Source: Thermodesulfobacteriota bacterium (GTDB lineage Bacteria > Desulfobacterota_D > UBA1144 > Nemesobacterales > UBA2774). From it: a stretch of DNA of 64,000 nt. The translations under genes and the position numbers were made by a program. Shown here one piece after another: positions 2,989 through 6,190 of this stretch. Location of the stretch: NCBI GenBank assembly GCA_040754335.1, contig JBFMCV010000001.1, positions 124,001-188,000 on the forward strand. Direction: 5' to 3'. Positions within the stretch are counted from its first letter, which is position 1; each line of letters opens with the position of its first letter. A model generated the notes under the pieces. It was not told the origin of the DNA, made no database searches, and worked only from the letters and a program-made list of their open reading frames with translations.

Positions 2989-4767
2989 TTGTATCTGTCC
3001 GAAAACGCGAAGAAGGTGCTTAAGGCGAGGTATCTCAGGAGGGACGACAAGGGGTCTGTGATCGAGACCCCTGAAGAGCTCTTCGGGAGGGTCGCGAAAG
3101 GGGTTTCCGAGGCCGAGCTCGTCTACGGAGGTTCCTCCTCGGCCCGTATGTGGGAAGAGCGGTTTTTCGAGATGCTGAGCAAGCTCCGGTTCCTTCCCAA
3201 CTCGCCCACGCTCATGAACGCAGGCACACCTCTCGGCCAGCTGAGCGCCTGTTTCGTCCTGCCCGTGGACGATACGATCGAGGATATTTTCGACGCGGTA
3301 AAGAACATGGCCCTCATACAGAGGACGGGCGGAGGCACGGGATTTTCATTCTCGAGGCTCCGCCCCAAGGGCTCGGTCGTCTCGAGCACGGGAGGGGAGT
3401 CCTCGGGCCCCGTGTCCTTCATGAAGATATTCGACAGCGCAACGGAGAATATAAAGCAGGGCGGGAGAAGGAGGGGCGCCAACATGGGGGTCCTCCGGGT
3501 CGACCACCCGGATATTCTCGAATTCGTCACGGCCAAGCTCGGGGAAGGCGAGCTCAGGAACTTCAACCTCTCCGTAGGCATAACGGACGTCTTCATGAAG
3601 GCCCTAGAAAGCGGCGGGACGTACGAGCTTATCGACCCGAGATCGGGCGGTGTCTCGGGGAGTCTCCGGGCAAGGGAAGTTTTTGAGAAGATCTCCGAAT
3701 GCGCATGGAAGACCGGGGACCCGGGCGTATTGTTTCTCGACACCATAAACAGGGCTCATCCCCTGAGGGACCTGGGTGAGATAGAGTCTACCAACCCCTG
3801 CGGCGAGCTCCCGCTCCTCCCAAACGAGAGCTGCAACCTGGCTTCCGTCAACCTTTCCGCCATGCTCGACGATAAAGGGGCGGCTGTCGACTGGGAGAAG
3901 CTTGGAAGACACGTCAGGGACGGAGTCCGTTTCCTCGACGACGTGATCGACGTGAATAAATTTCCGACCCCCGAGATCGGCTCGGTCACGAGAGCAAACA
4001 GAAAGATAGGCTTGGGCGTTATGGGATTCGCGGAGATGCTCATCAGGCTCGGCATCCCGTATAATTCGGCTGAGGCCGTGGATTACGCGGACAGGCTCAT
4101 GTCCTTCGTTTACGACGAGGCGTTTAAGGCGTCGGCCGGACTCGCGGAGGAGAGGGGAGCGTTCCCGAACTGGGAGAAGAGCGATTATGCGCGGCAGGGA
4201 AAGAGGTTAAGGAATGGAACGCTCGCCTCCATAGCCCCGACGGGCACGATAAGCATCATAGCGGGGACGACTTCCGGAATAGAGCCGCTCTTTGCGCTCG
4301 CTTACAGAAGAAAAAACGTGCTCGGGGGCGAGACCCTTTATGAAATAAACCCCGTATTCCTAGAATACGGCACGAAGCTGGGACTATCTCCCGGAGAATT
4401 CCATGACCGCGTTATCCGCGAGATGCTTGAGAAGGGCGGCATAAGCGGGGTTGGGGGCGTCCCGGAGGATATGAAGAGGTTATTCGTTACGGCCCTCGAT
4501 ATACCTTACGTGCAGCATATAAAAATGCAGGCTGCGTTCCAGATGCACGTCGACAATTCCGTCTCGAAAACCATAAACATGCCCGAGAGCGCGGGCGTCA
4601 GTGAAGTGAAGGACGCATATCTCAAGGCCTACGGCCTGGGCTGCAAAGGGATTACCGTCTTCCGATACGGATCGAGGAGTCAGCAGGTGCTCGAGATAGA
4701 GACCGACGAGAAGGCGTTCGAAAGGGAATATTTCACCAGGTGCGATCCCGAGGCCTGCAGGCTTTAG
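2989..4767 (+). CDS. nrdJ: Adenosylcobalamin-dependent ribonucleotide reductase (class II)
   Basis: Reduces ribonucleotides to deoxyribonucleotides using adenosylcobalamin as radical source, so it works with or without oxygen. In order: substrate-site cysteine in LSACFVLPVDD near residue 85, GGGTGFSFSRLRP near 112, NPCGELPLLPNESCNLASVN near 270 with the catalytic N-x-C-x-E triad, and the phosphate-binding ASIAPTGTISII near 418. The C-terminus CDPEACRL carries the Cys pair expected to shuttle electrons. Start is a TTG at 2989 behind CCGGAG. At 592 residues it is the short, ATP-cone-free form. Activity demands cobalamin; a BtuB-like receptor lies at 12.5 kb. Confidence 0.93.
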   Translation: MYLSENAKKVLKARYLRRDDKGSVIETPEELFGRVAKGVSEAELVYGGSSSARMWEERFFEMLSKLRFLPNSPTLMNAGTPLGQLSACFVLPVDDTIEDIFDAVKNMALIQRTGGGTGFSFSRLRPKGSVVSSTGGESSGPVSFMKIFDSATENIKQGGRRRGANMGVLRVDHPDILEFVTAKLGEGELRNFNLSVGITDVFMKALESGGTYELIDPRSGGVSGSLRAREVFEKISECAWKTGDPGVLFLDTINRAHPLRDLGEIESTNPCGELPLLPNESCNLASVNLSAMLDDKGAAVDWEKLGRHVRDGVRFLDDVIDVNKFPTPEIGSVTRANRKIGLGVMGFAEMLIRLGIPYNSAEAVDYADRLMSFVYDEAFKASAGLAEERGAFPNWEKSDYARQGKRLRNGTLASIAPTGTISIIAGTTSGIEPLFALAYRRKNVLGGETLYEINPVFLEYGTKLGLSPGEFHDRVIREMLEKGGISGVGGVPEDMKRLFVTALDIPYVQHIKMQAAFQMHVDNSVSKTINMPESAGVSEVKDAYLKAYGLGCKGITVFRYGSRSQQVLEIETDEKAFEREYFTRCDPEACRL

Positions 4768-4845
4768 GCGTTTTCCCTGCGGAGCCTTGTCACGCCAAGC
4801 ACGGCTCTCAAAACTATGCCATAATCGTCAAGAGCGTGAAAAGAC

Positions 4846-4902
4846 GAAGAAGCGCGAGCTTCTTCATGCGCGCGTTTTTGTTTTTTGCGCGCTTCTTTTT
4901 TT
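4846..4902 (+). terminator. Double hairpin with T-tract after nrdJ
   Basis: A perfect 8-bp stem GAAGAAGC/GCTTCTTC around a GCGA loop (4846-4865) is followed by a second stem GCGCGC/GCGCGC with a T-rich loop (4868-4892), then TTCTTTTTTT. It lies 78 bases past the nrdJ stop and fits intrinsic termination. Confidence 0.6.
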
Positions 4903-4950
4903 ACTGTGTCTTCCTTCCCCGTGCTTCCTTCAACTGTGTATTCCTTAGGG

Positions 4951-5013
4951 TTCAAATTTTGAACACCCGGGTGTTCGTTATCTGAACACCGGTGTTCATA
5001 TTCTGAACGGGTG
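4951..5013. repeat. Cluster of GAACACC palindromes
   Basis: Within 63 bases there are TTCAAATTTTGAA (4951-4963), the perfect 16-bp palindrome GAACACCCGGGTGTTC (4961-4976), the perfect 16-bp palindrome TGAACACCGGTGTTCA (4983-4998) and a half-site TGAACGGGTG (5004-5013). The TGAAC half-sites recur along the cluster, as in an operator array, but no start codon of a convincing gene is close. Function unknown. Confidence 0.55.
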
Positions 5014-5033
5014 GGGGACGTTTTCTTCAGCAT

Positions 5034-5701
5034 GACCGCCGCGCCTGTCCTGAGCGAAGTCGCTCATCTCGATCAAAGCCCTAGCCCTAGCCGGGAAGGA
5101 TCGAAGTATGAACGGGTTTGAATTCGTTGCTGATTTGAGCAGAGGACTTGGAAGGAATCGTAAAACAGATTATATGATTGGTTTATAAAAGAATAAGAGA
5201 CAACTAAATTCTTTCTTCTTTTCCTTGATGAAAAGAAGCAAAAATCATCCGACTACACAGAATTTCGGCTAAAATCGTTCGTAAACGCTAAAAATCTATC
5301 AATTCCGCCCCAAATAGCATGGTAGTTTAGTGATGTCCGAAGCTAATTAACTTCTTTCTGATAGGGAAGGGCGTCCGAATGCGCGCTCGCTTGCATTCGT
5401 TCCCTGATAGATTTTTCCGTGCGTTTGCGACCGATTCCTTAACGCCGATTCTGTGAATGTCGGTAAAACGACAAAGCAAAGAAAAAACCGTTCGTACTGA
5501 GGCGCAGAACCTGCGCTCGTATACGATCCTTAAATCACTCCACTGATTTAACGGAATAATGGACCCAAGATAATCCTGAACTCGCTGTCCTTGCGTGCCA
5601 TCTCCTGAGCGAAGTCGAAGGATCGAAGTATGAATGGTTTAGTATTGGAGACGTTAAACGGAGGAGTTGGAAGGGATCATAGAACGCACTATGTGCGTGT
5701 G
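5034..5701. repeat. Repeat-rich intergenic region
   Basis: No gene is credible here. Two related blocks, 5047-5178 and 5603-5695, both carry TCCTGAGCGAAGTCG, AAGGATCGAAGTATGAA and a GGAG/CTTGGAAGG.ATC tail; the first has about 35 extra bases inside. GGCGCAG...TATACGATCCT at 5501-5530 recurs at 46897-46926 with two mismatches. The TCCTGAGCGAAGTCGAAGGA type of sequence belongs to a REP-like family widespread in bacterial genomes. Confidence 0.6.
5249..5463. repeat. Imperfect inverted repeat (MITE-like)
   Basis: The arm 5249-5301, reverse-complemented, aligns with 5405-5463: both begin TGATAGATTTTT and end near ATTCTGTG...GTCGG with moderate mismatches between. The 103-base spacer holds a second hairpin, CGAATGC...GCATTCG with flanking GGGAA/TTCCC. 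No coding capacity. This looks like a small non-autonomous element or its remnant. Confidence 0.45.
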
Positions 5702-6190
5702 CTATTCGCCTATCCATCTCCCCTCGGCCTCCCTGTCGCCTAGAGGCATTTCTTCCTGCACGGGCGCCTGGTTTTCGAGAGGGTATTCCTCCCCCTCGGG
5801 TCCGGGGGGCAATACTTCAGACGCCTGCTCGGCCGTTTCCGAATCCTCGCCTACTTCCTCGGAAGCCTGATCGTCCGTCTCGGAGACTTCATCGAGGGAC
5901 TCGGTGGGCGCTATATCGTCGCCGACTTCTTCAGACGCCTGGTCGTCCGTTTCCGATACCTCGTCGAGCGACTCTGTAGGCGCGCCGACAGGCTCCCCGG
6001 ACAGGTCGCCAACGGGCTCGGATACCTGGTCGAGCTCTTCCGTCTCGGGGTCTATCTGGAGCATTATGCCTCTTGCGTGTCCGTAGGCCGCGCCGTCCAG
6101 GGCTTCTGCTCCCGTTACGGTCAGAGTTATTCCTGCGCAGAGCACGGCCAGGCAGAGATACGTCAGGGCTCTACTCAATAAATTTTTCAT
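5702..6190 (-). CDS. Secreted acidic repeat protein, unknown function
   Basis: A 162-residue protein with a clear signal peptide (MKNLLSRAL then a hydrophobic core to about residue 28, AEA-like cleavage site). The mature part is very acidic and low in complexity. A unit APTESLDEVSETDDQASEEVG occurs twice nearly exactly around residues 70-115, with degenerate copies on both sides. The ATG follows AAGGAGAAGTTAA, a good ribosome-binding site, which supports a real gene. No known domain; disordered and probably periplasmic or exported. It could bind cations through its Glu/Asp clusters, which is speculation. Confidence 0.7.
   Translation of the reverse strand: MKNLLSRALTYLCLAVLCAGITLTVTGAEALDGAAYGHARGIMLQIDPETEELDQVSEPVGDLSGEPVGAPTESLDEVSETDDQASEEVGDDIAPTESLDEVSETDDQASEEVGEDSETAEQASEVLPPGPEGEEYPLENQAPVQEEMPLGDREAEGRWIGE

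Follow-up and report, generated by a model that had tools for sequence, protein, structure and literature searches.

Sequence comparison identifies the dense palindrome cluster at 4949-5009 of the window, by which the whole analysed stretch of 64,000 nucleotides is meant, as belonging to an incomplete and decaying copy of a segment of a gene that encodes a 309-aa HTH_36 protein and is intact on another contig (C3) of the same genome. In the C3 gene, this segment carries three TGTTCA-N5-TGAACA dyads separated by about two helical turns, together with a fourth, different site, as well as a short direct repeat and two inverted repeats. The window therefore probably contains a copy of an intragenic iteron array that was displaced and is now decaying; protein binding and origin activity are inferred for the array, and an otherwise odd palindrome cluster is explained as a displaced origin-like module.

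The first-pass annotation had reported two perfect 16-bp palindromes, a 13-base palindrome and a half-site within this region. Both 16-bp palindromes (GAACACCCGGGTGTTC and TGAACACCGGTGTTCA) and the half-site TGAAC, at about 5004, are indeed present, and the 13-base palindrome is real but forms the inner part of a 15-bp palindrome, GTTCAAATTTTGAAC, at 4950-4964. The clustering is beyond chance: none of 300 dinucleotide shuffles of the window has three palindromes of 14 or more paired bases whose starts fall within 50 bp, and with looser limits (at least 12 paired bases, 70 bp) three palindromes were reached by 3 of 60 shuffles. The sequence TGAACACC occurs four times in the window against 1.21 expected, with three of the four lying within the cluster, and a count of four was reached by 2 of 100 shuffles. 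A better description of the repeated unit is the 17-bp dyad TGTTCA-N5-TGAACA, of which there are three sites with starts 23 and 21 bp apart, the 16-bp palindromes being the junctions of neighbouring units (Table 1). The picture of a spaced array of dyad sites without an adjacent gene start is thereby retained.

Table 1. Features of the window element, its copies in the genome and the matching fragments of the 309-aa protein
Feature	Position (window, unless stated)	Strand	Basis and remarks
Whole element, about 210 bp, decayed copy of the HTH_36 gene segment with the array	4820..5032	-	89-92% identity to three other genome copies; right end (5032) set where the decayed fourth site ends
Relic open frame, 89 aa	4764..5033	-	part matches the 309-aa HTH_36 protein (residues below); 81% amino-acid identity, no stop
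Site 3, TGTTCA-N5-TGAACA type, 1 mismatch	4949..4965	-	genome pattern scan; holds the 13-base palindrome
Site 2, TGTTCA-N5-TGAACA type, 1 mismatch	4972..4988	-	genome pattern scan
Site 1, TGTTCA-N5-TGAACA type, 1 mismatch	4993..5009	-	genome pattern scan
Junction palindrome GAACACCCGGGTGTTC, sites 3/2	4961..4976	.	palindrome search
Junction palindrome TGAACACCGGTGTTCA, sites 2/1	4983..4998	.	palindrome search; exact 16-mer occurs once in genome
Decayed fourth site, GGGTGA-N8-TCACCC type	5013..5032	-	four mismatches (counted by eye); perfect in the other three copies
CTAAGGAATACACAGT block after array	4933..4948	-	first 14 bases = CTAAGGAATACACA; imperfect second copy at 4903-4916
20-bp inverted repeat GAAGAAGCGCGAGCTTCTTC	4846..4865	.	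read in sequence; hairpin in predicted DNA fold
GCGCGC ... GCGCGC inverted repeat, A/T-rich loop	4868..4892	.	read in sequence; predicted DNA fold
C3 copy	query 41-250 = window 4820-5029		92% identity, BLAST
C4 copy	query 41-263 = window 4820-5042		89% identity, BLAST
C1 copy	query 62-250 = window 4841-5029		91% identity, BLAST
C4 fragment of 309-aa protein	residues 168-266		one stop; protein search
C1 fragment of 309-aa protein	residues 166-238		protein search
Window fragment of 309-aa protein	residues 175-244		protein search

The distribution of the sites over the genome follows that of the element. With at most one mismatch allowed, TGTTCA-N5-TGAACA has 17 distinct sites in the genome, 12 of which lie in four element copies, three in each, and the other five are single sites with one mismatch each. 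All seven perfect sites fall within the four copies and none outside them, and one copy lies upstream of rplU. The genome-wide motif scan that had been proposed as a way of linking the sites with a regulator consequently showed no regulon. In gene orientation, the left edge of the element is formed by the fourth dyad, GGGTGA-N8-TCACCC, which is also found in perfect form three times inside a paralogous gene on contig C10 and twice elsewhere in the genome. A BLAST search of window 4780-5720 against its own genome, in which 40 of the 142 first candidates were scored, returned, besides the window itself, another three copies of the left part of the queried stretch, while the remaining matches belong to other repeat families. 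Weak further copies might escape a search of this kind; the pattern scans gave the same four only.

The C3 copy is the only one that resides in an intact gene, where the element lies in frame and encodes the linker of the HTH_36 protein (PF13730, E 2.5e-16, above cut-off). Among the PHROG families, this protein matches a replication initiation family (phrog_270, 3.4e-12) and the O-like families phrog_8540, 391 and 678, and by family resemblance it may thus be regarded as a helix-turn-helix replication initiator. NCBIfam has no family for it, and tblastn gave no phage match and, among plasmids, two Alicyclobacillus records. A search by sequence among solved structures yielded three chains with E values of 0.26-0.71, which are not meaningful. 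In the own genome, the protein search found one full-length copy and fragments, including four shorter pieces. Over 189 nt, the window copy and the C1 copy each differ from the C3 gene at 14 positions (4 synonymous, 10 nonsynonymous) and the C4 copy at 3 (none synonymous, one leading to a stop), numbers that are too small for measuring selection.

Within the C3 gene, the three sites of the array begin at 0.59 of the ORF and occupy codon phases 0, 0 and 2. As the sites are read in two codon phases, it is the DNA that is repeated and not a peptide. The 60 bp following the array rank at the 84th A+T percentile of the gene, yet the 40 bp with the highest A+T content of the gene are found 330 bp ahead of the array. 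With a dN/dS of 0.44-0.50, the C-terminal part is under moderate constraint only. Neither an integrase nor a phage gene was found with Pfam among four ORFs neighbouring the C3 gene, and its flanks are shared with two sister species, so that a present role in replication does not have to be assumed for it.

The window copy has lost this gene context. Its relic frame matches no Pfam family and the HTH domain is absent, so there is no intact initiator gene around the window array. The 14 bases CTAAGGAATACACA that open the block after the array are identical across nine aligned copies. The non-coding DNA past the element carries two more dispersed repeat families with many diverged genome copies (5208-5470 and 5485-5642), and TCCTGAGCGAAGTCG occurs twice in the same stretch, at 5048 and 5603. 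Further along, at 5702-6190 on the minus strand, lies a 162-aa ORF with acidic repeats (ESLDEVSETDDQASEEVG) and without a Pfam match; in genome G001, homologous DNA also comes after the RNR gene. Rfam at gathering scores returned two tRNAs only for the whole window.

Related arrays also occur beyond this genome. A search of 60 genomes, the own one (G000) included, gave matches in 4. The chance frequency and lack of conservation that the first-pass annotation had contemplated were not what was found: related arrays with altered half-sites are present in two sister species and in one other genus. Both G002 and G003 have the C-terminal part of the gene close to the flanking gene and the tRNA-Leu that also accompany it in C3, and their contigs break off inside the array and show this part only; such contig ends inside the array of the HTH_36 gene (L113 and L114) would be expected if the array is repeated in these genomes. 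Solo copies were found upstream of rplU in G002, adjoining a pckA-like ORF in G003 (both gene names were read by eye from ORFs) and in G009, and their half-sites differ, being of the CTTCA, GTTCA and GGTCA types. In G000 and G002, the copy upstream of rplU has the same location, at which none was seen in G008, G015, G006 and G012, a comparison in which L169 provides 49 upstream bases only and L170 and L171 were left out. In the own genome this copy has three TGTTCA-type sites, two perfect and one with a mismatch, whereas the sister species has CTTCA- and GGTCA-type half-sites at the same place. Changes that are mirrored in both arms affect dyad pair 3 (TA to GC) in all three sites of G009 and in one site of the rplU copy of G002. 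These mirrored half-site changes come from few sequences in which several other cells break the pair, and are suggestive. The blocks on either side of the window element (the RNR gene and the next gene) are separated by 30 bp in G001 and by about 950 in the own genome, owing either to an insertion in the latter or to a deletion in G001. With only distant matches (38-42%) to the RNR gene of the window, G002 and G003 cannot decide between the two.

A second HTH_36 gene of this genome, the paralogue on C10, encodes 337 aa and is divergent from parA (AAA_31). Matches to it, some of them partial, were found within the class in 12 of 57 genomes and within the family in 10 of 16. Nine of the 12 paralogue loci showed parA and eight showed TGAC-type dyads, a reading from which L179 and L184 were left out; L182 has two sites of another type, and L183 comprises the N-terminal part only and has no sites. 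The divergent arrangement of parA and an HTH_36 gene with four internal dyads was seen at L149:25-3155 and among L173-L183. The four dyads of the paralogue array stand in two codon phases and have corresponding positions across several genomes. An A+T-rich tract beside the sites is clear in this gene, whose A+T maximum over 40 bp (0.80) starts 90 bp after the array start. Among three species, the dN/dS of the paralogue is 0.10-0.18. Its synonymous rate is 0.09-0.23 in the array versus 0.38-0.52 elsewhere, but rates as low as that of the array are reached by 28-45 of 321 sliding windows. Together, parA and the 337-aa gene possibly form a domesticated plasmid replication and partition module. 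An initiator-like gene with linkage to parA and an internal array, matched in 10 of 16 genomes of one family, would then represent a possible domesticated replicon.

Arrays of this kind were also found inside viral genes. Scans of viral contigs for tandem pairs of sites gave 9 contigs for TGTTCA, 14 for GGTGAC and 13 for GGGTCA, and the ORF over the array matches replication initiation families (E at most 1e-3) in 24 of these 36 (6/9, 9/14 and 9/13, respectively), with L051 scanned by NCBIfam alone and L188 covered only within the tally of one family scan. Control palindromes, which cover TGTTCA only of the three site types and have its composition, gave no contig (TCTGTA) and three contigs (TTGTAC), with no ORF matching an initiation family. 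As a marker of viral contigs, TAAGGAATACA was discarded, since its 18 contigs showed coding or unrelated DNA and no initiator array. For measurements on the arrays, 27 ORFs were picked by the authors: 25 viral ones, L073 and the C3 gene. Eleven of the 36 viral contigs (L051, L056, L186, L188, L192, L193, L197, L202, L205, L206 and L207) were excluded because the array lies outside a recognisable initiator ORF or, for L207, at the end of the contig; L053 and L208 stayed in the set without a PHROG match, and L149, whose sites are off pattern, was not counted. In 20 of the 27 ORFs, the sites occupy two codon phases. The 60 bp following the array are A+T-rich for the gene (mean percentile 0.75, Wilcoxon p 8e-5, an optimistic value as some of the phage ORFs are related), and the 60 bp before it have a mean percentile of 0.58 (p 0.15). 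Spacings of 21-23 bp account for 37 of 55 in these ORFs, the scan having admitted 18-27 for the sought pair. Tandem dyads 21-23 bp apart, read in two codon phases within an HTH ORF, may thus provide a DNA-only route to initiator genes and their likely sites. A literature search over titles and abstract openings met no description of two-phase intragenic dyad arrays as a general feature, although absence from print is not claimed.

In bacterial genomes, the same scan for the TGTTCA pair gave 47 loci, of which 22 are from Pelagibacter as judged by title. A family search on 8 of the 47 identified six MarR_EPS genes, one ParB-like gene and one initiator (L073). Since the pair mostly lies elsewhere in bacterial genomes, the motif alone does not name its protein. 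In SAR11 (L061, L080, L087, L089, L093 and L099), all six ORFs tested are MarR_EPS (TIGR04176) genes with tandem TGTTCA-N5-TGAACA sites at the gene or a short distance upstream of it, and here these sites are likely the operator of this regulator family. Two or three close sites of this type were likewise observed at Bacteroides and Mediterranea loci (L062, L068, L074, L076, L079, L094, L104 and L105), and two TGTTCA dyads lie within the coding sequence of a Streptomyces ParB-like ORF (L081:3710-4636, minus strand; PHROG ParB-like 3.4e-12).

The SAR11 sites are an argument for the view of the first-pass annotation, in which the cluster is a cooperative operator array for a transcription factor or the relic of a lost promoter, and the element copy upstream of rplU, seen in two species, could be read in the same way. 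However, MarR_EPS is unmatched in all four genomes of this genus and was rejected as the cognate regulator, no promoter-like site was found in window 4700-5750, and perfect sites are confined to the four element copies. The aligned DNA is moreover coding sequence of the HTH_36 gene, and an operator array or a promoter relic is very improbable; a relic it may well be, but the promoter part of that proposal is not supported, as the intact copy is an in-frame coding sequence in the linker of a replication-initiator-like gene. Still less credible is a transcription terminator retained for its hairpins and T-run beside gene 3' ends: the predicted single-strand fold is strong (z -4.4) and the rplU copy has a terminator-like score on the plus strand, but no terminator was called within the element of the window, C4 and G003 C88 copies by a tool that admits loops of 3-8 only.

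The array might instead be a parS-like centromere, with HTH_36 proteins as DNA-binding partners of ParA and the scattered copies as partition sites. The paralogue divergent from parA in 9 of 12 loci, the recurrence of its 20-bp site type at one edge in three of the four elements and the dyads in the Streptomyces ParB-like ORF all agree with such a role. It is nevertheless unlikely, given that parA was not seen beside the C3 gene and that the 24 viral ORF sets mentioned above match replication initiation families. A mobile or palindromic DNA element, comparable to a MITE or RPE, that was also inserted in frame into the HTH_36 gene would account for the similar left and right limits of the copies, for the location of the window copy within a stretch of about 950 bp missing in one sister species and for the other dispersed repeats nearby. 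This explanation is quite unlikely: inspection of the copy alignments by eye revealed no terminal inverted repeats or target duplications, and the C4 copy reaches beyond the window copy on both sides. In addition, arrays occupy similar positions within the paralogue and the phage genes, which assigns an array to the gene family.

The preferred reading, a displaced copy of an intragenic iteron array, can be put into the following scheme. The dyads of the C3 gene would serve as iterons bound by the protein that the gene itself encodes, and the array with adjoining DNA would serve this protein as an origin or control site, in the way that ori-lambda serves lambda O. The replicon would be of plasmid or phage descent and now resident in the chromosome. 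The window copy would have been displaced to its present location by a route that can only be surmised, losing the consensus there, and may at most act as a weak extra binding site. A stronger version, in which the solo arrays are kept on purpose as extra binding sites for an initiator of plasmid or phage type that the chromosome has adopted, as second origins like SPP1 oriR or as titrating sinks, and have their half-sites rewritten together in each species, seems rather unlikely. The homology, the place in the gene, the distribution of the sites and their coding in two phases are the observations on which this scheme is built.

Several known systems share parts of this arrangement. The SAR11 MarR_EPS loci have the same tandem TGTTCA-N5-TGAACA sites, but these lie at or upstream of a small regulator gene instead of inside an initiator, and the regulator is unmatched in this genus. 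On an Alicyclobacillus dauci plasmid, parA is followed by a small gene and then by an HTH gene, two genes from parA, with internal direct repeats spaced 31, 21 and 21 bp; in contrast to the C3 gene, this is a complete plasmid with another site sequence, and the stretch of the record that was read carries no origin annotation. In phage SPP1, oriL lies within gene 38, whose product, the initiator gp38, binds direct repeats in its own gene, and a second origin, oriR, with its set of repeats outside gene 38, lies elsewhere (PMC6316719). Repeats inside an initiator gene with a second set outside are likewise found here, although the sites here are 17-bp dyads and the solo copies are decayed gene fragments with a putative origin role. 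In phage lambda, the origin is located inside gene O, the initiator gene, whose middle part has the iterons and an A+T-rich tract (PMC7466680). Plasmid-borne pieces of the lambda origin can inhibit replication of the phage, for which the oop transcript is also required (PMC3349717), and by analogy it is thinkable that the solo copies titrate the initiator. The lambda sites differ in sequence, the C3 gene is embedded in flanks common to three species and the window copy has lost the surrounding gene. The lambda origin and the C3 array have in common the position of tandem sites in the middle of a gene, which for C3 is of initiator type by family resemblance, with O-like PHROG matches.
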